Both the position numbers and the translations under genes were made by a program. DNA of 42,653 bases from Candidatus Methylopumilus sp. (lineage in GTDB: Bacteria; Pseudomonadota; Gammaproteobacteria; Burkholderiales; Methylophilaceae): positions 1 to 42,653 of the forward strand of contig JAPLQN010000070.1 in NCBI GenBank assembly GCA_026399645.1, written 5' to 3'. Under the pieces are notes generated by a model that worked only from the letters and a program-made list of their open reading frames with translations, searched no databases and was not told where the DNA came from. Of this stretch, positions 17,242 through 34,790 are shown piece by piece. Position 1 is the first letter of the stretch; every line of letters starts with the position of its first letter.

Positions 17242-18591
17242 TTATTTTTTTTGTATGCCGAGTTTTTTTTCTAAATAATGAATGCTGACACCGCCATTGT
17301 TAAACGCAAGATCAGCCATGAGGTCTTTGTGTAACGGAATATTTGTTTTAATACCTTCGACTACCATTTCAGATAAAGCAACGCGCATTCTCGCAATAGC
17401 TTGATCGCGCGTATCACCATAAGTAATTAATTTACCAATCATGGAGTCATAATTCGAAGGCACGGTGTAACCCGCGTAGGTATGAGTGTCTACTCGAACC
17501 CCTGGGCCTCCTGGCATATGGAACGTAGTGACTTTTCCAGGCGAAGGTAAAAAGTTATAAGGATCTTCCGCATTAATTCGACATTCAATTGCATGCCCTT
17601 TAAAGATAATATCTTTTTGTTTAAAAGGTAATTTTTCACCGCAAGCAATCTTGATTTGTTGTTGAACAATATCAATGCCTGTTATAAATTCTGTAACAGG
17701 ATGTTCAACTTGTAATCGTGTATTCATTTCAATGAAATAAAATTCATTGTTTTCATATAAGAATTCGAAAGTACCTGCACCACGATAATTAATTTTTCGG
17801 CATGCTTCTGCGCAACGCCCACCAATTTTTTCACGGATTTTTTGTGATAAACCTGGTGCTGGTGCTTCCTCAATAATTTTTTGATGACGACGCTGAAGCG
17901 AGCAATCGCGCTCACCCAGATATACAGCATTACCATGCTCATCAGAAAGTATCTGAAATTCAACATGGCGAGGTTTTTCTAAATACTTTTCCATATATAC
18001 AACAGGGTTGCCAAAAGCAGCTTGCGCTTCCTGTTTGGTCATATTGACTGAAGCAATTAAAGCAGCCTCAGTGTGGACTACGCGCATGCCTCTCCCACCA
18101 CCACCACCAGCAGCCTTAATAATAATGGGGTAACCAATTTTTTTAGCAATGGCAATGATTTCTTTGGGCTCATCAGGAAGCGCACCCTCAGATCCAGGAA
18201 CACAAGGCACCCCCGCTTCTTTCATGGCGTTTTTTGCGCTAACTTTGTCGCCCATGAGGCGAATCGTTTCTGGACGGGGACCTATAAATACAAAACCACT
18301 CTGTTGAACGCGCTCAGCAAAATCTGCATTCTCGGACAAAAAGCCATAGCCGGGGTGAATGGCCTCTGAATCAGTAACTTCCGCAGCGCTAATGACAGCT
18401 GGGATATTTAAATAACTTTGTGTGGAAGGCGCCGGGCCAATACATACTGACTCATCAGACAATTTGACGTATTTTGCATCGCGGTCTGCTTCGGAATGGA
18501 TAGTAACTGTTTTAATGCCAAGCTCGCGACATGCGCGCAAAATTCTAAGTGCTATTTCGCCACGATTGGCGATCAGTATTTTTTCAAACAT
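17242..18591 (-). CDS. accC: acetyl-CoA carboxylase biotin carboxylase subunit
   Basis: AccC carboxylates the biotin on AccB with ATP and bicarbonate, the first half of malonyl-CoA synthesis. The 449-residue protein has the N-terminal [19 protein letters not shown] motif, the ATP-grasp glycine loop [14 protein letters not shown] (about 159-172), the [20 protein letters not shown] signature (about 230-249) and the [14 protein letters not shown] active-site stretch. It lies 8 bases after accB and is immediately followed by prmA. Confidence 0.98.
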
Positions 18592-18599
18592 AAAATAAG

Positions 18600-19070
18600 T
18601 TAGCCAATAATAAAGAGAGTTTCACCGTATTCAACGGGCTGGCCACTTTCAACCAAGATCTTCTTAATCGTGCCAGTAGCGTCAGCTTCAATTTCATTGA
18701 GTAATTTCATGGCTTCAATGATACAAAGAGTGTCACCTTTAGTGACTTTGGAGCCTACATCGACAAAAGCTTTGGCATCAGGCGAAGGTGAACGATAGAA
18801 CGTTCCCACCATAGGTGAATTTACTGCATGGCCATCTATTTTTTCTGCAATAGGCTTAGTTTCTGAAGTTACCCCCCCGTCTGACGGAGCGGCCATTTGA
18901 GGCTGATGCCCCATTTGCTGAGGTGCTTGTATATAGTGTGTCATAGGTGCCGCTTGATTCATAAGTTGCCGGCTGATTTTTACTTTTTCTTCACCTTCGG
19001 TGAGTTCAAGTTCGGCGATACCAGACTCTTCTACTAAATCGATTAATTTTTTAAGTTTGCGTAAATCCAT
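18600..19070 (-). CDS. accB: biotin carboxyl carrier protein of acetyl-CoA carboxylase
   Basis: The 156-residue carrier has a short N-terminal dimerisation region ([18 protein letters not shown]), a flexible Ala/Pro/Gln/Met-rich linker (about 37-75), and a C-terminal biotinyl domain (about 80-156). The biotin-accepting lysine is in the [14 protein letters not shown] motif (about 116-129). The biotinyl domain keeps the typical thumb-like insertion preceding the EAMK strand. It heads the accB-accC-prmA run, 20 bases after aroQ. Confidence 0.97.
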
Positions 19071-19090
19071 AATGACCTCTTTTTAAAACT

Positions 19091-19528
19091 TTAAGCGTTA
19101 ATTGCAAAATTAAGGGCTGCTATATAACCATCCGCACCTAGGCCGCTAATCACCGCGACTGCGATATCAGAAAAATAGGAGTGATGCCTAAAAGGCTCCC
19201 TTGCATACACATTCGATAAATGAACTTCAATAAATGGCACCTTGACGGCCGAGAGCGCATCACGCATTGCAACAGATGTGTGGGTATAGGCTGCCGGATT
19301 AATAATTAGGAAATCTACCTTGTCATTGTGAAGCGACTGGATTTTGTTTACCAAGTCTCCTTCGCTATTGCTTTGCATGGTTTCAAGCTTAATAGACTTC
19401 GCTGATGCTATGGTTTTTAAAGCTTGATCGATGTCTTCTAAGGTCTGTTTACCATAGTGCTGTGGCTCACGCTCACCAAGAAGGTTAAGGTTGGGCCCGT
19501 GCAAAACTAAGATTGATTTTGTTGCCAT
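19091..19528 (-). CDS. aroQ: type II 3-dehydroquinate dehydratase
   Basis: AroQ removes water from 3-dehydroquinate in the shikimate pathway. The 145-residue length and motifs fit the type II dodecameric enzyme: [17 protein letters not shown] (with the catalytic tyrosine Y25), [17 protein letters not shown], and [20 protein letters not shown] with the catalytic histidine. It is commonly found just upstream of accB in proteobacteria, as here. Confidence 0.97.
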
Positions 19529-19614
19529 GTGTTACGTTTTTTCTTGAATCTATGGAAGTTAATTTTGCCGAAAATAACGTTTTTTGTCTACAAATTAGAC
19601 GAAATTAAGGAAAA

Positions 19615-20163
19615 TTAAGGGCTTTTTGAGGGTTGCAATAAAGGCTTGATTATGGCATCCAATTGGTCTTTATTTACACGACCGAGAATCGTTTTTTGGA
19701 TGTTACCGTCTGAATCGATAATTACAGTATAAGGCAAAATACCCTCATTGTTCCCTAAATTCTTACTCAAAATCACGCCTTTATCTTCATCTACAAATAT
19801 AGGGTACGCTACCTTTGTTTGTTTAAGATAAGATTTCACGGCCTTTTCCTCATCAATCGCAATGCCAACTACCACAAGGTTTTTAGATTTATTCTCAGCA
19901 TATACTTTAGATAATTCAGGCATTTCTTCACGACAAGGCTCGCACCAAGTTGCCCAAAAATTAAGCACAATAGTTTTATCCTGAAATTGTTTAAGACTTT
20001 GAGGCCTGCCGTCAGGGTCATTCATCATGGTTGTATAGAGAGGGGTAGTCGAAGGAGCATTTTTCTCAGATGGCATTAAAAAAATGCGAGAAAAAGAAAA
20101 GCCTAAGAAAATAATAACAACCAAATAGATGGCTAAATGAAGTTTGGTTTTATTGATTTTCAT
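19615..20163 (-). CDS. TlpA/ResA-like membrane-anchored thioredoxin
   Basis: The 182-residue protein has one N-terminal membrane anchor (about 8-28), then a periplasmic thioredoxin-like domain with the active site WATWCEPCREEMP (C74, C77). The YTVIIDSDG strand and cis-proline region (ILPYT) follow. Such proteins reduce disulfides in the periplasm, for example on apocytochrome c, and receive electrons from DsbD or CcdA. The start overlaps the 3' end of dsbD by 14 bases, which supports a functional pairing. The exact substrate cannot be told from the sequence. Confidence 0.92.
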   Translation of the reverse strand: MKINKTKLHLAIYLVVIIFLGFSFSRIFLMPSEKNAPSTTPLYTTMMNDPDGRPQSLKQFQDKTIVLNFWATWCEPCREEMPELSKVYAENKSKNLVVVGIAIDEEKAVKSYLKQTKVAYPIFVDEDKGVILSKNLGNNEGILPYTVIIDSDGNIQKTILGRVNKDQLDAIIKPLLQPSKSP

Positions 20164-21943
20164 GTTGGAGCGTTTTAAGGTGGTCTAGCATTTGAGATAC
20201 GTTCTTGTAGCCTACAATTCTATAAGTGCGTAATTCGCTATGCTGCTTATCAAAAAATAAGATGGCTGGCGGCCCGTAAAGATTGAAATGTTTTAAGAGG
20301 GCTTTATGGTTAGCATTATTTTTAGTGACGTCAATTTGAAGCAATCTATATTCTTTGAGGTGCTCCTTGACTTTTGGATTACTAAAAGTAAGTTTTTCAT
20401 ATTCTTTACAAGACACACACCAGTCTGCATAAAAATCTAGCATGATCATTTTGTTATCGCGCTGATTAAGTTCTCTGGATAAATCATCGAGATTTTGAAT
20501 TTGCTTAAAAGGCAAAACAGAAACGTGATTAGGCTTTGTGATGTTAGAAATATCTTCATTATCAGAAACATTCATTTTTTGAAGAGTTAGGCCAAAAAGT
20601 AAAATGGAAGCAATGAGCGTTACAAAAGCTAAGAGATGAACCCAAGACATCGACTTATATTTGAAGCGACGGGCTGCAAAAAATAAATATATAGAGAGTG
20701 CGAGTAATAGAGCACTATAAGCAATCTGATCAAAATGTTCAGGGAATAGTGGACTCATAATAAAAAGGCCCATGGCAATTAAGATAAAGCCAATCAGTTC
20801 TTTAACAATAATCATCCAATGGCCACGCTTTGGCAGCCATTGATCAGAAAAAATACCAATGAGCAGAAGCGGGATACTCATTCCAACAGAGAGTGTAAAT
20901 AAAGCTAAGCCACCTAAGATAAAATCTTGTGATTGATTGATATAAATGATTGCCCCTGCGAGGGGAGGCGCGATGCAAGGACTCAATACAAGAGATGAAA
21001 TCATACCGATAATAAAAACATTAAGATATCTACCTCCTTCTACGCGAAGGATAGATGTTGCAATAAAATTTTCAATAAAGTGAGGTAATTTGAGAGCATA
21101 TAAATCAAACATAGAAAGAGCTAAAAGAATAAAAACAATGCCGAGGGTAATCATGAGTAAGGGACTTTGAATGCTTGACGTAATTAAATTACCTGACAAT
21201 CCTGCAAAAATACCTATCAAGGTATAAGTAAAAGAAACGCCACCCACATAACTCAATGACAGAAAAAAATCTTTTAAGCGTGTTTGCTGAGAGGGGCGCT
21301 TATGTGATGCAAAAATAATACTTGATAAAATAGGAATCATGGGAAGCACACAGGGCGTTAAAGAAAGCAAAAGCCCTGCAATAAAGAATCCCAATAAGAT
21401 AAGACCAATATGTTGTGATTGAAGTAAAAATTGCATCGTATCAACTTCAGAATTAGAGCTGACCGCGTTTAAGTTTTTGTTTTGAATGCTATCGAATTTA
21501 AATGCTTTTGTAATGGGAGCATAACAAAGACCTTTTTGGCTGCATCCTTGATAAGTCAGGCTTATCTCTTTTGGTGGATGAGTTGGGTCATATGGAATAG
21601 AGGCATTTAAAGTGTCATGATAAATTTCTGTTTTTCCGAAGTGTGGGTCTGTTTTAATTTCAGCTGTTGGCAAAAGCATTTGTTTTTGAACAATATGATC
21701 AAATTCAACTCTCAATTTATTGCGATAAAGATAATAGTCTTTAGCAATAAAGAACGCCGCCTCAATTGATTGAGGATTTTTCTTAATTGTTAATTGAAAA
21801 GCTTCGTCAGGCGGTAAGAATGCATTTTTATCTTTTAAGAATAAAGAGTCATTAGCATGTGCGCTGTTGATGAGTAAGCCGATAAAAAATAAACCAAATA
21901 AGATTGTTATTTTTTTTGATAAAGAAAAAATACGGCTAAACAT
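20150..21943 (-). CDS. dsbD: thiol:disulfide interchange protein DsbD
   Basis: DsbD carries electrons from cytoplasmic thioredoxin across the inner membrane to periplasmic partners. The 597-residue protein keeps all three cysteine pairs: C134/C140 in the N-terminal periplasmic domain (GCSQKGLC), C198 (LTPCVLP) and C323 (LSPCIAPP) in the membrane domain, and C509/C512 (WCVSCK) in the C-terminal thioredoxin domain. A signal peptide ends near AHA (residue 30). It is the first gene of a two-gene unit with the TlpA-like protein. Confidence 0.96.
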   Translation of the reverse strand: MFSRIFSLSKKITILFGLFFIGLLINSAHANDSLFLKDKNAFLPPDEAFQLTIKKNPQSIEAAFFIAKDYYLYRNKLRVEFDHIVQKQMLLPTAEIKTDPHFGKTEIYHDTLNASIPYDPTHPPKEISLTYQGCSQKGLCYAPITKAFKFDSIQNKNLNAVSSNSEVDTMQFLLQSQHIGLILLGFFIAGLLLSLTPCVLPMIPILSSIIFASHKRPSQQTRLKDFFLSLSYVGGVSFTYTLIGIFAGLSGNLITSSIQSPLLMITLGIVFILLALSMFDLYALKLPHFIENFIATSILRVEGGRYLNVFIIGMISSLVLSPCIAPPLAGAIIYINQSQDFILGGLALFTLSVGMSIPLLLIGIFSDQWLPKRGHWMIIVKELIGFILIAMGLFIMSPLFPEHFDQIAYSALLLALSIYLFFAARRFKYKSMSWVHLLAFVTLIASILLFGLTLQKMNVSDNEDISNITKPNHVSVLPFKQIQNLDDLSRELNQRDNKMIMLDFYADWCVSCKEYEKLTFSNPKVKEHLKEYRLLQIDVTKNNANHKALLKHFNLYGPPAILFFDKQHSELRTYRIVGYKNVSQMLDHLKTLQHENQ

Positions 21944-22087
21944 GAATAACGGCCTTTAATTAATAAGAAATGAGTCGGTTGGAGTTAATTTGTCACAAAA
22001 ACGTTCCTTAAGTATTATTCAAAGAAGCTCTTAAGCACAACGATCATTTATTACATATAATTCTAACTAGATTAATAGAATAACCTA

Positions 22088-22483
22088 ATGCGATTACTTT
22101 TTACTATTCTTTTATTGTCCTTCCCAGTCATTGAGATATGGGGCATTTTTAAACTAAGCACTCTTTATGGCTGGTGGTTTTTTCTTTATATGGTTTTAGT
22201 CAGTTATCTTGGTTGGCGGTTAATTAAAGAAGAAAAACAATTAGTTTTTGCAAAGTTTATGGGAGCAATGAGCCAAGGTAGCAACCCAATTAAAGTTATG
22301 ATTGGAAGTGCTCGTAATTTATTTGTAGGCCTCTTATTTATTATTCCTGGCGTAATTACGGATCTCTTTGCAGTCATATTGTTGCTTATTCCTATTAAAA
22401 ATAACGCTTCTCAAAATATTAATCCATCAGAAGAAGATGTGATCGAAGGAGAGTATCGTCGCGATGATGAGCTTTTAAAATAA
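22088..22483 (+). CDS. fxsA: FxsA family membrane protein
   Basis: A 131-residue protein with the FxsA layout: an N-terminal hydrophobic helix with PVIEIWGIF (about 14-22), a second helix (about 28-44) followed by GWRLIKEEK, a third/fourth hydrophobic segment (about 74-98, LLFIIPGVITDLFAVILLLIP) and a charged C-terminal tail. FxsA was named for suppression of F-plasmid exclusion of phage T7; its normal role is unclear. Its last base overlaps the start of the following reductase gene (TAATG). Confidence 0.9.
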   Translation: MRLLFTILLLSFPVIEIWGIFKLSTLYGWWFFLYMVLVSYLGWRLIKEEKQLVFAKFMGAMSQGSNPIKVMIGSARNLFVGLLFIIPGVITDLFAVILLLIPIKNNASQNINPSEEDVIEGEYRRDDELLK

Positions 22484-23505
22484 TGAGTTACACCATAAAA
22501 CTTTTACCAAGTGGCCTTGTCTTTCAAGCTAAAGGAAGTCAAACCATTATAGAGGCCGCCATAGATGCAGGTGTTCATCTGCCTTATGGTTGTAGAAATG
22601 GTGCTTGTGGCGCATGCAAAGGTAAAGTGGTTGAAGGAAAAGTGCATTTAGAAGATTATCAGTCATCCGTGATTTCAGAAGAAGAAATTAAAAATGGCAT
22701 GACATTGTTTTGTAAGGCAATCGCTATTGAAGACTTAACTATTGAAATTAAAGAGCTAGCTATCACTAACAATATTAGACCTAAAATCTTTCCAGTGCGT
22801 GTTGAGGCTTTAGAAAAGCTCACTCATGACGTAATGCTGATGAAGCTTAAGCTCCCAAGTACTGACAAACTGCAATTTGTAGCAGGACAATATCTAGAAT
22901 TTTTACTTAAAGATGGAAAGAGGAGAGCATTTTCAATTGCGAGCCCTTCTCACGAGTCTTCCTTGCTTGAAATACACCTGAGGCTCATTCCAGGCGGGGA
23001 ATTTACAGAATATGTATTTAAAGAAATGACAGAAAAATCTATTCTGCGCGTGGAAGGACCTTTTGGTAATTTTTATTTACGCGAAGATTCTGAAAAAACT
23101 ATTATTTTCGTAGCTGGCGGAACGGGCTTTGCACCTATTAAGGGCATGATTGAAGAGTCCATTCAAAAAGGTATGCAGAGACCTATCAAGCTTTATCGTG
23201 GCGCACGCGTATTGGAAGATTTATATATGGATGCATTATGCAAAAAATGGGCAAATGAATTTTCGCATATTGAATACATTCCTGTGTTGTCCGAATCTCT
23301 TCAAGAAGATGCTTGGCATGGACGAAATGGATTAGTGCATGAAGCTGTATTAAAAGATTTTGTAAATTTTAATGACTATCAATTGTATTGTTGTGGCGCT
23401 CCTCAGATGGTAGAAGTTGCACACAAGGCATTTATTAAAGCAGGGCTACCGGAGGATGAGTTTTATTCGGATGCTTTTACGTTTGCAGCGCCTGTAAAAA
23501 AATAA
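22483..23505 (+). CDS. 2Fe-2S ferredoxin / FAD / NAD(P) oxidoreductase (glucoseen-reductase-like)
   Basis: The 340-residue protein has an N-terminal plant-type ferredoxin domain with cluster ligands C37, C42, C45 and C77 (YGCRNGACGACKG ... LFC). It is followed by an FAD-binding domain (RAFSIASPS near residue 147) and an NAD-binding domain (FVAGGTGFAPIKGMIEES). The same architecture is often annotated CDP-6-deoxy-3,4-glucoseen reductase in betaproteobacteria, but no deoxysugar genes are nearby, so the real electron acceptor is unknown. A one-base overlap with fxsA suggests coupled translation. A strong terminator follows. Confidence 0.93.
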   Translation: MSYTIKLLPSGLVFQAKGSQTIIEAAIDAGVHLPYGCRNGACGACKGKVVEGKVHLEDYQSSVISEEEIKNGMTLFCKAIAIEDLTIEIKELAITNNIRPKIFPVRVEALEKLTHDVMLMKLKLPSTDKLQFVAGQYLEFLLKDGKRRAFSIASPSHESSLLEIHLRLIPGGEFTEYVFKEMTEKSILRVEGPFGNFYLREDSEKTIIFVAGGTGFAPIKGMIEESIQKGMQRPIKLYRGARVLEDLYMDALCKKWANEFSHIEYIPVLSESLQEDAWHGRNGLVHEAVLKDFVNFNDYQLYCCGAPQMVEVAHKAFIKAGLPEDEFYSDAFTFAAPVKK

Positions 23506-27322: not shown

Positions 27323-28720
27323 TTAGCTGTTTTCTAATTTTACAGACCAACCTCCACCTAAAGATTTAAATAACTCAACGCTCGCAATTAATCTTAATTG
27401 TCTTTTTTGAAGATAAGCAATCGACGCATCGTTGTAAACACGCTGAGCATCAAGATATTCCAAGTAACTTGAATAACCGGCTTTGTATCGGTTCGATGCA
27501 ATACCCATAGCTTTCTTCGCCGCATCTTGTGTGAGTTTTAAATCATTTTCTTGCTCGGTGTATTCTTTTAAAGATACAAGTGCATTATTTACTTCTTTAA
27601 AAGCATTTTGTATAGAAGATTCATAATAGCTAAGCGCTTGTTTTTGTTTGGCTGTTGCTTGACTGACTCTTGCTTGAGCTCTTCCTGAGTCAAAAATCGG
27701 AAGTGTTAAGCCTAAGCCTATTCCCCATATGTCTGAACCAGTTTTATTAATATTTTTTAATTCAGCACTCTCTCTTCCAAAATTTGCCGTAAGGATAATG
27801 TTTGGAAAAAGTGCTGCTTTAGCCACCCCAATATTTGCATTAGCTGCAATCATTATTTGTTCGGCTTCTTTAACATCTGGCCTTGATTCTAAAAGCGATG
27901 AGGGCATATTAGCTGGTGGGATTGGAGGCGTGACCAAAGCGTCAAATCTATTTTCAGGAATATTTAAATTCATATCACCTGATAAAAGAATAAGCTGATT
28001 AGAAACGACTTCACGTTGACGAATAAGATCACTCAGTTGAGCAGATAGATTATTAAAAGCCGCCTCAGCTTGATGAAGATCGAGTGCAGATATAAGTCCG
28101 CTCTCTAAACGCTTTTTAGTGAGCTCTAAATTTTCTTTCCGATATCCAACGTTATCTTTTAAAGCCAATATTTGAGAATCGATACTTCGCATTAATAAGT
28201 AATTACTTGCAAGAGTGCTTTGTAAACTTAATACCACAGTATCTTTTGAATATTGAGATGAAATATATTCTGCACGAGCTGATTCTTTCGCTCGACGTAA
28301 TCTTCCCCAAAAATCTAGCTCAAATGATGTGCCGAGTTGAATATTGAAATTTTTACGAAATGGTGGAAAGCTTGAGCGAAAGATACCATTTTCAGTGGCT
28401 TTAGTCCTATTTCCTTGAGACGTTAAATCTATCGAAGGTATCAAAGCCGCACCTATTTGTTGCAGGTATGCATCAGCCTCCTCCAAACGCGCAATCGCTG
28501 CATTAATATCTGTATTTTTCTTTAATGCTTTATCCATTAACTCATCAAGTGCCGGGTCTTGATAAAGTTTCCACCACATATTTAAATCTGTCACCACATT
28601 GTCTTTATTAATTTCCTGGCGATAAGCGTTGGGCAAATTAATTTCTGGGCGTTTGTAATCAGGCCCAACTAGAGTGCAACTTGCAACCAAAATTAGCAAT
28701 ATTAAAAATATGATTTTCAT
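27323..28720 (-). CDS. outer-membrane efflux channel, NodT/OprM family lipoprotein
   Basis: A 465-residue TolC-like channel of an RND efflux system. The N-terminus is a lipoprotein signal with lipobox VASC (acylated C15), followed by the family start VGPDYKRPEI. The two outer-membrane efflux repeats are visible, including the SRPDVKEAEQ motif and the late YKAGYSSYLEYLDAQR motif in the second helical hairpin. It is the last gene of the tripartite operon, 3 bases after the pump gene. The substrate cannot be predicted from the channel. Confidence 0.95.
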   Translation of the reverse strand: MKIIFLILLILVASCTLVGPDYKRPEINLPNAYRQEINKDNVVTDLNMWWKLYQDPALDELMDKALKKNTDINAAIARLEEADAYLQQIGAALIPSIDLTSQGNRTKATENGIFRSSFPPFRKNFNIQLGTSFELDFWGRLRRAKESARAEYISSQYSKDTVVLSLQSTLASNYLLMRSIDSQILALKDNVGYRKENLELTKKRLESGLISALDLHQAEAAFNNLSAQLSDLIRQREVVSNQLILLSGDMNLNIPENRFDALVTPPIPPANMPSSLLESRPDVKEAEQIMIAANANIGVAKAALFPNIILTANFGRESAELKNINKTGSDIWGIGLGLTLPIFDSGRAQARVSQATAKQKQALSYYESSIQNAFKEVNNALVSLKEYTEQENDLKLTQDAAKKAMGIASNRYKAGYSSYLEYLDAQRVYNDASIAYLQKRQLRLIASVELFKSLGGGWSVKLENS

Positions 28721-28723
28721 ATT

Positions 28724-31700
28724 TTATTTTTTAAACTCTTCAGCAATTTTGATATAAGTGCCAATACGATCTTTCTGATGTTTACTTAACCATACAAAAA
28801 ATAGCGGAATAAAAATAGTTGCAATAAAGGTTGCTAATATCATGCCACCAAAAACACCAGTCCCCATAGATTGACGTGCCGCAGCACCGGCGCCTGTTGC
28901 AAAAACAAGAGGCACAATACCAAAAACGAAAGCCATTGACGTCATCACAATAGGTCTAAATCGGAGACGCGCAGCTTCAACCGCAGCCTCCATGAGGGGC
29001 ATACCTTCTTCCATTTTTTGACTGGCAAATTCCACAATTAAAATTGCATTTTTAGCAGCGAGGCCAATCAAGGTGATTAAGCCAATCTGAAAATAAATAT
29101 CATTTGGCATACCGCGCACTAGAATAGCAATGAGCGCGCCAGTCATTGCAAATGGCACAGCCATAATTACTGCGAGAGGAAGTGCCCATGTTTCAAACTG
29201 TGCGGCTAAAATCAGAAATACCATAATAATGGCAAAACCAAATGCGAAGAGCGCCGCAGAACCCGTGCGCTTTTCTTGATAGGCTTGTCCTGTCCAAGCC
29301 ATTTGATAACCCTCAGGTAAACTTTCTTTCGCAATTTTTTCAACAAGCTTAATGGTGTCGCCCGAACTAACACCAGGGGCTCCTCCTGCTAAGACTTTTG
29401 CCGAGAGAAGTCCGTTAAAACGTTCGAGTTGTTCAGCACCTACAATACTATTGACTGTGCTAATCGCTGAGAGGGGAATCATAGCGCCTGTATTTGATCG
29501 CACATACACTTTACCGAGATCATCTGGACTCATTCGATAAGGCGCTTCCGCTTGAAGCTGAACACGATAAGTTCTACCTGATTTATTAAAGTCATTAACA
29601 TACAGTGAGCCCATAGTGCTTTGCAGAGTGTCATAAATACTCGAAATAGGGATGCCTAAGCTCATCGCTTTAGCTTCATCTACTTCAATAAAAAGTTGCG
29701 GTACAGTAGGCCTAAAAAAGGAATTAATGCCTATAAGACGTGGTTCTTTTTTAAGTGCTTCAATGAACAAATTCACTGCAGCAAATAAACGTAATGGGTC
29801 AGTGTCGCTTCTACTTTGGACATAAGTTTCCATACTACCTGAGCTGCCTAATCCACGAATTGAAGGAGGGTTAAATGCAATAGCAAGGCCATCGGGTTGC
29901 ATCATACCAATACCAAAAAGTTTTTTTACAATATCACCTGCGGAGCTTTTTCGTTCCGCCCAATCTTTTAATCTTACAAACATCGTAGCTGCATTTGATT
30001 TGTTGCCGCCTCCAATCAAGTCGTAACCATTTACAGCAAACTGAAAAGTAGTTGCAGGATCCTTGGCAATTGCAGAACGAACAGCTTCCGTTGTTTTAGA
30101 AGTGCGACTAATTGTAGCGCCATCCGGCAACATCACAGCTGTAATAACGTATCCTTGATCTTCGGAAGGTATAAAGCTTGTAGGCGTATATTTAAAAAGG
30201 AATATAGAGGCAATCACAATTCCAACAAAGACAATGCCCCCAATAAAGCGGTGGTGCAATGTGCTATTAACGACCTTAATATAAAAATTGGTTAAGCGAG
30301 TAAATCCTCCATTAAAGCGATCAAAAAATTTTGAACTAATAGAGTTCGGATTTAAGATAATGGCACAGAGTGCCGGCGTCAGCGTGAGGGCCACAACACC
30401 AGATATCACAACAGCAATAGCAACTGTCACAGCAAATTGGCGATAGAGTTCTCCTGCGATACCACCCATAAATGCCACAGGCACAAATACAGCGCATAAC
30501 ACTAATACAATGGCAATGACTGCAGCAGAGACTTGTTCCATGGATTTAATAGCAGCTTTAATCGGAGACAGTTTTTCTTCTGCCATTAAGCGTTCAATAT
30601 TTTCTAAAACGACAATGGCATCATCGACCACAATACCTATAGACAAGACCATCGCGAAGAGTGTCAGTGTATTGATTGAGAAACCAAAAAGATATAGCCC
30701 TGCAAAAGTACCTATTAAAGATATAGGTACAGCGATAATAGGAATTAAAGTTGCACGCCAGTTTTGTAAAAATAGAAACACGACAATCACTACAAGAAGC
30801 ATTGCTTCACCAAGCGTTTTAAAGACTTCTTTCATGGAAGCTTTTACAAAATTACTTGTGTCATAAGGAATTTCGAAATCCATTCCTTTAGGAAAGCGTC
30901 CTTTAAGTTCAGCCATTTTTTCTTTAATGCCCTTTGCTGTATCAAGAGCATTAGCGCCTGTTTGAAGGAAAATAGGAATACCTACGCCTGGTTTACCATT
31001 TAATGTTGTATTGATGTCGTAGGTTTGTGCACCCAATTCGACCCTTGCAATATCTTTAAGATAAAGAATACCGTTTGGCCCACCAGCTCTAACGATAATA
31101 TTTCCAAATTCATTAGGATCAAGCAAGCGGCCTTTTGCATTGACTGTATATACTAGTTGTTGCTCATTTACAGAAGGTTCCTGACCAATTTTACCTGCCG
31201 CATATTGTGCATTTTGGCTTTGAATTGCAGCTGCAATATCAGAGGTGGTAATACCAAGTTGTGCCATTCGATCTGGTTTTAGCCAGATCCGCATAGAGTA
31301 ATCGCGGGCACCAAAAATATTAGCATCACCAACACCTTTGACGCGTTTGATTTCATCTAATACATTTAGCGTTGCATAGTTACTTAAATAAAGCGGATCA
31401 AATTGTTTGTCTTTTGATGTGAGCATCACCACCAAAAGAATGTCATTTGATTTTTTTTGCACAATCACACCTGTGCGCCTTACCATTTCTGGTAATCGAG
31501 GCGAGGCGATGTTGACACGATTACTTACATTAAATGTAGCCTGATCAATGTTGGTGCCAATTTCAAAAGTAGCAGTAATGTTAAGTGTGCCGCTAGAGTC
31601 CGTGCTTGAATTAAAATAAAGAAGACCTTCAACGCCACTTAGCTGCTCTTCAATGGGGCCTGCAACTGTTTTCGAGAGTGTTTCGGCACTTGCACCTGGG

Positions 31701-31840
31701 TAAGTGATAATGACTGTAGGTGGCGCAATTTGCGGATATTGTGCAATGGATAATTTAAGTGCAGCAGCAATACCAGCTAGGACAATAATGATTGAGATTA
31801 CCGCAGCAAAAATGGGCCGCGTAATAAAAAATTTACTCAT
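28724..31840 (-). CDS. RND multidrug efflux pump, HAE1 (AcrB/MexB) family
   Basis: The 1038-residue inner-membrane pump starts MSKFFITRPIFAAVISI and has twelve membrane segments around two large periplasmic loops. The proton-relay residues of the family are present: the aspartate pair in GIVVDDAIVVLENIERLM (about 401-418) and the lysine in GLAAKNAILIVEFA in the second half. HAE1 pumps export hydrophobic compounds, dyes, detergents and antibiotics using the proton gradient. Its ATG overlaps the adaptor stop by one base (TAATG), so the two are coupled. Confidence 0.97.
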   Translation of the reverse strand: MSKFFITRPIFAAVISIIIVLAGIAAALKLSIAQYPQIAPPTVIITYPGASAETLSKTVAGPIEEQLSGVEGLLYFNSSTDSSGTLNITATFEIGTNIDQATFNVSNRVNIASPRLPEMVRRTGVIVQKKSNDILLVVMLTSKDKQFDPLYLSNYATLNVLDEIKRVKGVGDANIFGARDYSMRIWLKPDRMAQLGITTSDIAAAIQSQNAQYAAGKIGQEPSVNEQQLVYTVNAKGRLLDPNEFGNIIVRAGGPNGILYLKDIARVELGAQTYDINTTLNGKPGVGIPIFLQTGANALDTAKGIKEKMAELKGRFPKGMDFEIPYDTSNFVKASMKEVFKTLGEAMLLVVIVVFLFLQNWRATLIPIIAVPISLIGTFAGLYLFGFSINTLTLFAMVLSIGIVVDDAIVVLENIERLMAEEKLSPIKAAIKSMEQVSAAVIAIVLVLCAVFVPVAFMGGIAGELYRQFAVTVAIAVVISGVVALTLTPALCAIILNPNSISSKFFDRFNGGFTRLTNFYIKVVNSTLHHRFIGGIVFVGIVIASIFLFKYTPTSFIPSEDQGYVITAVMLPDGATISRTSKTTEAVRSAIAKDPATTFQFAVNGYDLIGGGNKSNAATMFVRLKDWAERKSSAGDIVKKLFGIGMMQPDGLAIAFNPPSIRGLGSSGSMETYVQSRSDTDPLRLFAAVNLFIEALKKEPRLIGINSFFRPTVPQLFIEVDEAKAMSLGIPISSIYDTLQSTMGSLYVNDFNKSGRTYRVQLQAEAPYRMSPDDLGKVYVRSNTGAMIPLSAISTVNSIVGAEQLERFNGLLSAKVLAGGAPGVSSGDTIKLVEKIAKESLPEGYQMAWTGQAYQEKRTGSAALFAFGFAIIMVFLILAAQFETWALPLAVIMAVPFAMTGALIAILVRGMPNDIYFQIGLITLIGLAAKNAILIVEFASQKMEEGMPLMEAAVEAARLRFRPIVMTSMAFVFGIVPLVFATGAGAAARQSMGTGVFGGMILATFIATIFIPLFFVWLSKHQKDRIGTYIKIAEEFKK

Positions 31841-32964
31841 TATTTTTTGAAGCTAGGCATGTTAGTCACAGGCATGCCAGGACGTACTTTGATAAGATTG
31901 TCGATAATGACTTTATCGCCCGCTTGAAGACCGCTTAGAATAACCCAATCTTTACCTTTCCATTGGCCAGTCACAACAGGACGGGGTGTCGCTTGACTTT
32001 TTTCATTGACCACAAATACAAATTTACCTTGATCAGAATTAAGAACCGCTAACTGAGGCAATAAAAATACACCATCTTTTTTACCTGTATTCACACGAAC
32101 ACGCACAAATTGGCCAGGTAAAATTTGACGCTCGTTATTTTCAAATGTTGCCCGGAGTTCTTGAGTACCAAGTGATGGATTGATTTCGCTTGCGGCAAAG
32201 TTTATTTTGCCTTTTTTCGGATATTCATTTCCATCAGAAAGGATCATTGAAACTTCTTGAATGTTTTTTTCATTTAATGCACCACCCAATTGTTTAAGTT
32301 CATTATCCGAAAAACTAAAACGCACCCAAATTGGATTTACTTGAGCTAATGTCGTAAGTAGACTTGTATTAGCAGAAATAAGCGCACCTTCAGAAAATTG
32401 AAAGCGACCAGAAATACCATCGACAGGCGCGGTAACATTGGTATAAGAAAGATTGAGTTCTGCCTGTCTTAAGTTTGCTCGGCTCTGGGCGAGAGCCGCA
32501 ACACTAATCGATTCATCTGATGTTGCATTATCAAATTCACGCTGACTAATTGACTGGGATTCGATCAAAGTTTCTAAACGTTTTTTTTCTCGCTTAGCTT
32601 GTTCGGCTCGAGCAAGACTCTGATTGTATTGAGCACGCGCTTGATTTAAGGCTATTTTGTATGGCTCGGGATCAATCTCAAATAAGGTTTGACCAGCTTT
32701 AACTGGGGAACCTTCATTGTATTTTCGTTTTAATAAAATACCGCCAACACGAGGCCTAATTTCGACTTCTTTAGCGCCTTCTGTTTGGCCTACTGCTTCA
32801 GCTGTAATAGGGATACTCGAAGGTGACACTTCAAGCATGGTTACGGGCATTACAAAATTAGGTGGCATGCCACTTTGCTCAGGGGGTTTATGGCAGCCAG
32901 CCAAGAAAAGCATTATAAAAGGTAGGAGCAAAATAGATCTTAATGGCGATAAATAGCTTAACAA
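31840..32964 (-). CDS. RND efflux periplasmic adaptor (AcrA/MexA family lipoprotein)
   Basis: This membrane-fusion protein links pump and channel. It has a lipobox LAGC followed by HKPPEQ, a split lipoyl-like domain (EIRPRVGGILLKRKYNEGSPVKAGQTLFEIDP and the matching VTAPVDGISGRFQFSEGALI), a helical hairpin between them (about 105-165) and C-terminal beta-barrel domains. I chose the TTG at 32964, because a GGAG motif ends 6 bases before it; a TTG at 32976 would overlap that motif. It is the first gene of the operon. No local regulator gene is adjacent. Confidence 0.94.
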   Translation of the reverse strand: MLSYLSPLRSILLLPFIMLFLAGCHKPPEQSGMPPNFVMPVTMLEVSPSSIPITAEAVGQTEGAKEVEIRPRVGGILLKRKYNEGSPVKAGQTLFEIDPEPYKIALNQARAQYNQSLARAEQAKREKKRLETLIESQSISQREFDNATSDESISVAALAQSRANLRQAELNLSYTNVTAPVDGISGRFQFSEGALISANTSLLTTLAQVNPIWVRFSFSDNELKQLGGALNEKNIQEVSMILSDGNEYPKKGKINFAASEINPSLGTQELRATFENNERQILPGQFVRVRVNTGKKDGVFLLPQLAVLNSDQGKFVFVVNEKSQATPRPVVTGQWKGKDWVILSGLQAGDKVIIDNLIKVRPGMPVTNMPSFKK

Positions 32965-33084
32965 CTGAAACTCCAACCTAAAAAATATGGATGTAGGAAA
33001 TGTCCTAAAGTATGGCTATATTTTACTCTGAAACTATGGATGCAAGGGGTTAAGCCTCAGTTTTTTAAAGCTTAGATATTAAAT

Positions 33085-33300
33085 CTAGCTCTTAAATTTT
33101 GTAGATAAATAAATAAGGTAAGTGCCAATGATGATATCAAGAAAAATCCATACCATTATTGGAAAGTAAAATGGGACGAAAGGATTGTCTATAATTAAGA
33201 CGCCAATTAAAAAAGCAATATGAGGTGTATTAAGCTTTACCCATTTGTTAAGCAAAATAAATCGATTGTTAATTAAAAAGAGTAAATCATGAGCAGGCAA
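33085..33300 (-). CDS. possible small two-helix membrane protein
   Basis: An open frame of 71 codons, with two hydrophobic segments (about 28-45 and 47-66) and a basic end (STKFKS). I do not recognise a family. It overlaps the first 12 bases of the divergent solute-binding gene and has no visible Shine-Dalgarno, which weakens it. The hydrophobic pattern and the otherwise empty region argue mildly for a real gene, perhaps with a later start. Confidence 0.35.
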   Translation of the reverse strand: MPAHDLLFLINNRFILLNKWVKLNTPHIAFLIGVLIIDNPFVPFYFPIMVWIFLDIIIGTYLIYLSTKFKS

Positions 33301-34077
33301 TTTAAATTATTAATATTTTTTTTCTTTGCATTATTTATATCCATGATAATAGTAGGGTGCAGCGATAAAGAAAAAGTTGTTATTACTAATATTAAGCAAT
33401 TAAATGATAAAGAGTTTGGAATCCCCACAGGGACAGTCGCTGATAAGCTTGTATTATCAGTATTTCCAAATGCAAAATTTCAATATTACAATTCGGTTCT
33501 TGATGCGGCCATAGCTGTTAAGCATGGAAAAGTTGATGCTGCAGCCTATGATGAACCAATATTAAGGAATATAGCAGCAAAAAATCCTGGTTTAACTGTA
33601 CTTCCCGAAATGATCACCAAGGATGATTATGGATTTGCAGTTCGGCTAGAGGATAGTGATTTAAAAAATACGATCGATGATGTTGTTAAAGGCTTAAAAA
33701 CAAGAGGTGATTATGAGCTGATGCTTAAGCGTTGGTTGCCAAAAGAAGGGCAGCCCAAATCAATGCCCCTAATAGAAACAGGCAATAATGGTTCATTGAG
33801 GTTTGGCACTTCATCAGTGACCGAACCTTTTTCATTTGTTGATGAATCTCAGAAAGTGGTAGGCATGGATATAGAAATTGCATCACTGGTAGCTAAAAAA
33901 CTTAATAAAAAATTAGAAATAGTTAATATGGAATTTGGCTCATTGATTCCAGCATTAGCTTCAAGGAAAGTAGATATGATTGGCGCATGCATAACTATTA
34001 CTGAAGAACGATCAAAAAAAGTATTATTTTCCAGTCCATATTACACAGGTGGAATTGCTGCAATTGTAAATAAATAA
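33289..34077 (+). CDS. solute-binding lipoprotein (SBP_bac_3 type) with permuted half-domains
   Basis: The 262-residue protein has a signal peptide with lipobox IVGC (C24). Residues about 34-150 look like the second part of an amino-acid binding protein: a GIPTGTVADKL ligand loop (44-54), DAAAYDEP (83-90), and a lobe ending in a KRWLP motif (147-151). Residues about 169-262 look like the first part: LRFGTSSVTEPFSFVDE, VGMDIEIASLVAKKLNKKLEIV, ITITEERSKKV with the ligand arginine R241, and SPYYTGGIAAIVNK. So the two parts are in swapped order, with all usual ligand-contact motifs retained. No permease or ATPase gene is adjacent. Confidence 0.85.
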   Translation: MSRQFKLLIFFFFALFISMIIVGCSDKEKVVITNIKQLNDKEFGIPTGTVADKLVLSVFPNAKFQYYNSVLDAAIAVKHGKVDAAAYDEPILRNIAAKNPGLTVLPEMITKDDYGFAVRLEDSDLKNTIDDVVKGLKTRGDYELMLKRWLPKEGQPKSMPLIETGNNGSLRFGTSSVTEPFSFVDESQKVVGMDIEIASLVAKKLNKKLEIVNMEFGSLIPALASRKVDMIGACITITEERSKKVLFSSPYYTGGIAAIVNK

Positions 34078-34088
34078 TTATTTATTTA
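34067..34088. terminator. all-A/T palindrome over two convergent stop codons
   Basis: A perfect 22-base palindrome with 11-base arms, composed only of A and T, centred at 34077/34078. It covers the end of the solute-binding gene and the stop of the convergent VIT1-family gene. Its thermal stability is low, so termination activity is uncertain. Confidence 0.35.
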
Positions 34089-34790
34089 AGAAAATAGATG
34101 AGCTAAGCCAAAAGCAGCCGAAGAAGCTAAGGCACCAATCACAAGTGTTTGCATCGCTGAACGTCCTTGACTCACCCCTGTGAAGCGACCTTTAATCCAA
34201 CCAAAAAGTACGAGTGCAATACTTGTTGCTATGACCGACATTTTTAGAGCGGACATGATGTCAGATATAAAGAAATAAGGCATCAGTGGAATGAGTCCCC
34301 CTATAATATAAGCGATTGCAATAGTAGCTGCGCTGGTCACTGCTCTTTTCGGATCAGGCCTTTCTAAATTTAATTCAAATTTCATCATGAATTTTAGCCA
34401 GCGTTCACGATTAGAAGTGATGGACCTAACCACTGCTTTAAGCGCGCTCCCTTTGAGCCCATATTCTGAAAGTATTTCCTGAACTTCTAAAATTTCATGC
34501 TCACGTAAATGTTTAATTTCATAGGCTTCACGTTTTAATTCAGAATCATAATGTTCAATATCTGTTTTTCCAGCAAGATAGCCACCCAAGCCCATCGCAA
34601 TCGAACCCGCCGCAACTTCGGCTAAGCCTGCTGTAACAATAATCGCTGATGAATCAACAGCTGCGGATAAGCCTGCAGCAAGAGCAAATGGAACAGTCAG
34701 TCCATCCGCCATGCCAATGACAATATCGCGGACTACTGCAGTTGAGGTAAAGTGTGTTTCAGAGTGATGCGAATGATGGTCGTTTGACAT
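34086..34790 (-). CDS. VIT1/CCC1 family Fe2+/Mn2+ transporter
   Basis: The 234-residue membrane protein has the family start: a His-rich N-terminus (SNDHHSHHSETHF), then VVRDIVIGMADGLTVPFALAAGLSAAV (about 19-45) containing the conserved GxxDGL motif. It also has a central acidic/helical region (about 80-130, EILEVQEILSEYG) and three C-terminal membrane helices. Such proteins export or store iron or manganese. The His-rich N-terminus may bind metal (inference). The gene is single, convergent with the solute-binding gene and divergent from the small 82-residue protein. Confidence 0.9.
   Translation of the reverse strand: MSNDHHSHHSETHFTSTAVVRDIVIGMADGLTVPFALAAGLSAAVDSSAIIVTAGLAEVAAGSIAMGLGGYLAGKTDIEHYDSELKREAYEIKHLREHEILEVQEILSEYGLKGSALKAVVRSITSNRERWLKFMMKFELNLERPDPKRAVTSAATIAIAYIIGGLIPLMPYFFISDIMSALKMSVIATSIALVLFGWIKGRFTGVSQGRSAMQTLVIGALASSAAFGLAHLFS

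Follow-up and report, generated by a model that had tools for sequence, protein, structure and literature searches.

Background

Can the binding domain of a bacterial solute-binding protein be encoded with its two halves in exchanged order, and does such a gene represent a natural circular permutation or only a piece cut from a tandem two-domain protein? This question was raised by a stretch of 42,653 nucleotides from Candidatus Methylopumilus sp. (GenBank assembly GCA_026399645.1, contig JAPLQN010000070.1, positions 1 to 42,653 of the forward strand; hereafter, the window). An initial annotation of the window, made from the letters alone, noticed a lipoprotein gene in which the half that comes second in ordinary type II binding proteins directly follows the lipobox. 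Natural circular permutation of binding-protein folds has rarely been documented.

In the present study, we examined this gene, its relatives in other genomes, its gene neighborhood, and its predicted structure. We found that it is very probably a naturally circularly permuted family-3 lipoprotein gene, intact, and probably orphaned recently in the window strain.

Results and discussion

Order of the half-domains

The gene (33289..34077, plus strand) starts with ATG and encodes 262 amino acid residues without an internal stop codon. Residues 1-23 (33289..33357, plus strand) form the predicted lipoprotein signal peptide, with the lipobox IVGC and the codon of Cys24 at 33358. In a phmmer search of the PDB sequences, T. 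maritima ArgBP (6svf) aligned with the query in two pieces: its residues 5-104 with query residues 163-262, and its residues 116-227 with query residues 38-150. The two stretches (i-Evalues 2e-20 and 1.5e-14) are inverted in order, the C-half stretch lying ahead of the N-half stretch, which bears out the reversed order that had been noticed. The C-half of a canonical family-3 binding protein thus occupies the first place (residues 36-151; 33394..33741, plus strand), and the N-half, which bears T238 and R241, the second (residues 167-262; 33787..34074, plus strand). The new linker from the old C-terminus to the old N-terminus was placed at about residues 152-166 (33742..33786, plus strand) from the gaps between the profile halves in relatives, close to the earlier estimate of about 152-168.

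Family-3 homology covers the whole binding domain, split into two pieces. As judged from its sequence, the window protein is a permuted variant and not an ordinary member of SBP_bac_3, the canonical order of N-half and then C-half being absent. We read the chain as cut between residues about 104 and 116 of TmArgBP, at the first lobe-to-lobe crossover. A domain search for hits in split order, which the initial annotation had proposed, was answered in part: two pieces were obtained with phmmer and two stretches with nine of the 15 NCBIfam models listed (none above the curated cut-off), whereas Pfam gave a single piece, SBP_bac_3 at residues 170-262 only (108.1 bits), this C-terminal piece being above the cut-off. 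A second copy of the gene was not detected in the window genome at E 1e-3.

Distribution and architecture of the permuted relatives

A genome collection was scanned with the permuted query, and the best 80 of 541 loci were studied by scoring their ORFs with separate profiles for the N-half and the C-half. A profile match was found in 100 ORFs, of which 89 are clear of the locus ends. The strict order (C-half, N-half)n was present in 88 of these 89 complete ORFs, the odd one being a lone N-half match; the recurrence is well beyond chance, and since the scan itself started from a permuted query, the figure shows the consistency of the order, not its prevalence. The number of units in the 88 ORFs is one (47 ORFs), two (19), three (16), or four (6). 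The (CN)n array is followed by three or more predicted membrane segments in 56 of the 100 ORFs, and 35 (36 when the window's own is counted) consist of a single CN unit without membrane segments behind it. The former proteins, (CN)1-4-permease fusions, are the similar layouts in longer transporter fusions of which the initial annotation had only an impression. With looser thresholds, these profiles were also run on a control set from which loci already known as permuted were excluded; of its 52 ORFs from 49 loci, 48 had the order NC, three had N, one had C, and none had CN.

The gap from C-half to N-half is 14-20 amino acid residues (median 16) at 168 junctions of the relatives, and that from N-half to C-half between units is 15-300 (median 21.5, n = 74). 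Because the N-to-C gap in 30 canonical proteins is 11-38 (median 15), spacing alone cannot exclude canonical pairing in the tandems.

The loci are labelled as Pseudomonadota, Bacteroidota, Chlorobiota, Bacillota, Thermodesulfobacteriota, Gemmatimonadota, Ignavibacteriota, Acidobacteriota, and others. Many of the 80 stem from metagenome bins, and the labels do not look right in every case. L071, filed under Chitinophagaceae, shares 90% identity with the window gene and is, by its look, probably a mis-binned metagenome contig; L142, labelled Klebsiella pneumoniae, has a similar look. The permuted order is also found in the records of named strains, as a stand-alone gene in LSUCC0135 and as fusions in Sporomusa ovata DSM 2662, Nitrosomonas communis Nm44, and Methylobacter marinus A45.

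Within the family of the window strain, 43 of 187 genomes gave a match at E 1e-3, mostly weak and in the N-half only. Full-length stand-alone copies are present in G000, G278 (94%), G290 (92%), G353 (73%), G355 (75%), and G375 (66%); the copy in G298 is apparently split across two contig ends, and G297 has a 29-residue piece. Longer ORFs with the permuted order once or more occur in G278, G290, G353, G355, G375, G298, G309, and G376. At E 1e-30, with at most six candidates scored per genome, matches were obtained in six of 398 sampled Pseudomonadota genomes; both halves were covered in the window's own genome alone, so the permuted form is rare there. In plasmids, 1451 records matched and one place covers at least 80%; among the 20 matches listed, all are in two pieces, and the annotated ones are ordinary binding proteins. 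Two stretches of viral contigs matched a pattern, and neither encodes a relative. Five unannotated 'Bacteriophage sp.' contigs from human feces (MT838900, MT838076, MT836806, MT836004, and MT837047) match the permuted order in one piece at 28-32% identity; they are perhaps bacterial DNA in a phage set.

A Cys occupies the lipobox column in 26 of the 27 stand-alone rows that come first in alignment A2. It is also present in 36 of the other 49 rows (L097-L150 other than L111), which comprise 41 rows from permease fusions, five further stand-alone proteins, and three others. The Cys in the fusion rows suggests that these are putative lipidated polytopic permease fusions.

Phylogenetic analysis

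For the trees, 76 of the 157 permuted units were used, namely 14 chosen units (the window and its family) and 62 taken at random from the rest; 13 loci (duplicates, near-copies, or cut loci) had been left out before sampling. Of the 48 canonical NC rows, 30 passed the score filter. Six long rows (two permuted and four canonical) were dropped from the concatenated tree, which contained 100 units (74 permuted and 26 canonical).

A clade of 18 rows with an SH-aLRT of 99 contained stand-alone proteins, including that of the window, and the first units of several (CN)n proteins. The fused members are unit 1 of the Bacteroidota (CN)2-3-permease proteins L100, L101, L102, and L119 and of the Thermotogae-labelled (CN)4 protein L110; unit 1 of L102 nests inside the stand-alone set. 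This clade argues that the stand-alone gene is the split-off, membrane-distal first unit of a (CN)n-permease gene, or the source of that unit by fusion, the permutation itself being earlier. The same is suggested by L082, L083, L090, and L095, where the stand-alone ORF abuts or overlaps a (CN)n-permease ORF downstream, and by L087, where it lies about 0.5 kb ahead of one. Although the tree was obtained from 208 columns by a short search, we consider such a history likely, and it is compatible with a natural permutation. The earlier suggestion of a piece cut from a tandem protein thus survives in that the stand-alone proteins group with the first units of fusions, but what moved was a whole C-N unit, by fission or fusion. 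A neighboring full tandem copy had been named as a possible sign of a decayed fragment; the fused copy in relatives is itself permuted, and no such sign was seen.

The tree needs two changes between the permuted and canonical orders; holding all permuted units as one clade is as likely (p-AU 0.555). Four permuted units from gut Oscillospiraceae (L144 and L147) fall among the canonical rows on a branch that the program flagged as long, which makes a second, independent permutation event possible.

Gene arrangement in the relatives

In G278, whose genome is a single contig, a block of genes ends with the stand-alone gene. The block starts with genes for a STAS protein, an RsbW-like protein, a Na/Pi symporter, and a protein without a Pfam match, and continues with a hybrid kinase with Hpt, a receiver-SpoIIE phosphatase, a CN-permease, and an ABC ATPase. 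The CN-permease and stand-alone genes of G290 are spaced as in G278.

The ABC ATPase (GlnQ-type) bears an RsbW-like tail of about 110 amino acid residues (e.g., L060:4498-5583). Comparison of 36 tails with 14 RsbW rows by hhalign gave 97.8% with an E-value of 1.1e-12. HATPase_c_2 matched eight of ten tails with E-values no higher than 1; one of these matches was above the cut-off, and L060 and L098 had no match. The tail is probably not a kinase, as judged from two of its motifs, because the position of the invariant, catalytic Asn54 in the N box of RsbW is L, I, or V in all 36 tails, and GLG is present in none of them (GGLG in all 14 RsbW rows). The fusion of the ATPase with the RsbW tail occurs in at least 49 of the 80 loci, receiver-SpoIIE in at least 21, STAS in at least 19, and RsbW in at least 12. 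From this co-occurrence, we infer that the tail may signal to the partner-switching genes.

Six Chlorobiaceae loci (L076, L078, L079, L084, L086, and L089) contain, in this order, a stand-alone CN ORF, a permease ORF within about 130 bp, and the ATPase. The permease ORF is 266-318 residues long and has no recognized binding domain; the stand-alone CN protein would be the sole binding protein of the cluster. By eye, the leaders of the L086 and L089 permeases resemble worn-down C-halves, as if a fused binding domain had decayed after the stand-alone gene took over. In two other relatives (L063:14296-15259 and L077), a GPP34-domain protein and a STAS protein adjoin the stand-alone gene. No common theme was found around lone stand-alone copies in ten ORFs from L080, L081, L091, L092, and L111.

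Probable loss of the neighboring genes in the window strain

In the window, the gene is flanked on the left by genes for an RND efflux pump (AcrB-type) and a membrane-fusion protein (28724..32976, minus strand), which are also the left neighbors in G278 and G290, and on the right by a gene for a VIT1-family protein (34086..34790, minus strand), the right neighbor of loci with and without the block. Positions 28068-33263 are colinear with 18000-23203 of G278, and the window from 33256 onward is colinear with G278 from 33089 onward; the assembly of the window strain lacks about 9.9 kb that is present in the G278 locus. From colinearity on both flanks in the assembly, the putative deletion junction is AATAAATC (33256..33263), an 8-bp microhomology. 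G278 carries AATAAATC on either side of the block; G290 has an exact copy on the left side and a copy with a single mismatch on the right side. The stretch 32977-33256 was considered as a remnant of the lost locus and ruled out, being the left flank of the intact locus. The start codon and the 25 preceding bases are retained beside the junction. As it appears from the assembly, the genes for the permease, the ATPase with the RsbW-like tail, and the SpoIIE/STAS/RsbW proteins were lost together.

SpoIIE gave no match in the window genome, the control genomes being positive, and a search of this genome for the RsbW tail, run without a positive control, gave none either. Five BPD permeases were matched in the window genome, and the permease of the locus, used as the query, matched one of the five, weakly (24% identity). 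As the genome is 93.9% complete (98 contigs), the cognate permease could lie in the missing sequence. Eight of the 13 other members of the genus without the full gene were inspected: seven have the RND and VIT1 flanks on one stretch with the gene absent, and the eighth shows the VIT1 side only. One of the seven, G281, has the last 40 bp or so of the gene left; this loss is independent of the deletion in the window, and the locus has eroded elsewhere in the genus.

The gene could accordingly be read as a pseudogene on its way out, left without function in the window strain after the deletion. The upstream genes of the locus are gone with any promoter that lay there, no SpoIIE match, RsbW-tail match, or close relative of the locus permease was found in the genome, and the 40-bp remainder in G281 testifies to independent erosion. 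However, the ORF is intact together with its start region, and dN/dS is 0.25 against G278 and 0.17 against G290, the two nearest holders of the locus, although most of the time covered by these values may predate the deletion. Polarized codon changes (10 synonymous and seven not in the window; four and four in G278) fit relaxation or constraint alike. We regard such a decay as a serious prospect but lean slightly against it.

Predicted structure

The structure prediction proposed with the first observation placed both parts in one domain: an AlphaFold2 model of the mature protein, made with 76 aligned units, is compact (mean pLDDT 95.7, pTM 0.89). By VIA-align, residues 142-233 of the model matched residues 25-116 of ArgBP 6ggv_B (45% identity, 92 residues, Z 12.2, 1.7 Å). 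Lobe-exchanged matches were obtained over the full length with OpuAC (about 10% identity, Z 11.5, 199 residues, 4.0 Å) and with GlnPQ SBD1 (about 10% identity, Z 9.8, 162 residues, 3.2 Å). Since HisG ATP-phosphoribosyltransferases, which have the same fold, rank alongside them, these lobe-exchanged matches show the general type II fold and not a binding protein. Foldseek TM-scores by query were 0.35-0.49 among the 50 matches listed. The sequence matches are of family 3, and the structural matches listed are type II folds. The tandem 6h30 aside, no permuted solved structure was found among the best 60 of 428 PDB sequences.

The chain was very probably re-cut at the first inter-lobe crossover, with a linker of about 15 residues joining the old termini. 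The product is predicted to keep the type II topology with its lobes exchanged and both new ends near the hinge, because the type II fold, as we read the structural matches, is nearly two-fold symmetric.

A model of the tandem (CN)2 relative L135 (19 sequences; pLDDT 87.1, pTM 0.53) has a single segment with pLDDT below 50, residues 237-251 at the N1-C2 junction, and a value of about 85 in the C1-N1 linker region. Canonical-order matches running from N1 into C2 (ending at 333-336) have an rmsd of 8.9-11.3 Å, and matches within unit 1 (1-237) one of 3.3-4.5 Å. As Z is tied between both kinds of match (10.7-12.7), the case for C-N pairing rests on rmsd and the disordered junction; in this model, the C-N pair behaves as one rigid domain and the N-C pair does not.

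The tie in Z leaves something to be said for the gene being a fragment of a canonical N-C-N-C tandem like that of GlnPQ, holding halves of two domains with no functional pairing; the GlnPQ tandem 6h30 also aligns across residues 36-257 of the query as its best stretch, and TIGR01096 reads the middle N-C of the (CN)2 protein L063 as a canonical domain (163-402). This explanation is largely refuted by the conservation of the order in stand-alone genes under many labels, with the C-half first and the N-half last in all but one of the 89 complete ORFs, whether stand-alone or fused, by the confident folding of a single unit, and by the L135 model, where the N1-C2 junction is floppy and the N1-C2 pair fails to superpose as a rigid canonical protein; we consider it very unlikely. 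The draft state of the genome (98 contigs) and related loci that look mislabelled, such as L071, might suggest a sequencing or binning artefact, but G278 and G290, each a single contig, carry the permuted gene too, and its order recurs in the four named-strain records given above, which leaves this idea practically no room. Natural permutation, the other origin first considered, agrees with the intact ORF, with dN/dS values of 0.15-0.25 in the six close-relative pairs where it was computable, with the confident single-domain model, and with the same order under many phylum labels.

Putative ligand and function

The first 27 rows of alignment A2 are all stand-alone proteins. T238, R241, D88, Y87, E89, P90, F181, and F183 do not vary among them, and T47 and T49 are each present in 26; the ligand residues first pointed out (T47, T49, D88, and R241) are at the expected positions. 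In the other 49 rows, T238 and R241 are present in all and D88 in 26. We take T238 and R241, the Thr and Arg of the TxxR motif, and D88 to be the positions that bind the alpha-amino and carboxyl groups, from LAO and GlnBP. The conservation of the ligand site makes an amino-acid-like ligand likely. The protein would bind an alpha-amino-acid-like ligand and close on it, to judge from T49, D88, T238, and R241 (26-27 of 27 rows), and in the relatives the ligand would be handed to the adjacent GlnP-type permease.

According to a published comparison, no 'Ca. Methylopumilus' has amino-acid transporters (PMC6794327). The permuted locus of G278 and G290 would be an exception to that statement if both genomes are members of the genus.

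Comparison with known binding proteins

Both halves of the window protein are homologous to Cluster F, or family 3 (TmArgBP, GlnH, LAO, and ArtJ; SBP_bac_3), with up to 45% identity in the N-half, and the ligand-site residues are retained. The protein differs from this family in that its halves are inverted; its termini would lie at the first inter-lobe crossover, and its lobes are predicted to be exchanged in chain order. GlnPQ has tandem canonical domains in the order SBD1-SBD2-permease (PMC8025302). In the relatives described here, too, a GlnP-type permease is preceded in the chain by at least one binding domain, but the layout is (C-N)n-permease with n = 1-4, often with an RsbW-tailed ATPase and often near partner-switching genes. 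The window protein stops after the binding domain and lacks the permease that is present in the fused relatives.

TpMglB-2 (Tp0684) of Treponema pallidum is a circularly permuted glucose-binding lipoprotein for which a 'Cluster Bc' was proposed (PMC4990184). On that account, it is likewise naturally permuted, lipid-anchored, and two-lobed, but it has a type I/Cluster B fold in which the strands of one lobe were relocated and a fourth crossover was added, and its ligand is glucose. This is the nearest documented natural case that we found, and it belongs to a different fold class. Permuted halves of ribose-binding protein, a type I protein, have been engineered as single-lobe designs; they show that the folds of binding proteins withstand re-cutting and the exchange of elements (PMC9815098).

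In the open-access literature, covered mainly by titles and the openings of abstracts, we found no description of a natural permutation in family 3 or of an ATPase-RsbW fusion. The betaine-binding proteins of the OpuAC and ProX types may also be related to each other by an exchange of halves. If so, they would be a nearer precedent; a term search of an OpuA paper (PMC2861598) found no words to this effect.

Conclusions

What we describe is a permuted version of a fold that is among the commonest for binding nutrients, present under many phylum labels. In tandem proteins, the permutation is easily missed because family models interpret the N-C stretch in the middle as a regular domain. The single-unit stand-alone proteins offer a clean system for the effects of tether position and lobe order on flytrap closure and delivery.

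Tentatively, and as a proposal that we hold to be somewhat improbable at present, the relatives may represent a class of ABC importers with hinge-to-hinge, lobe-exchanged binding domains, in which occupancy would be passed through the RsbW-like tail of the ATPase into the SpoIIE/STAS/RsbW pathway. The RsbW-like tail makes this link between transport and signalling directly testable. If the proposal is true, the transporter would double as an amino-acid receptor, and the permutation would have been favored because the tethers sit at the hinge.
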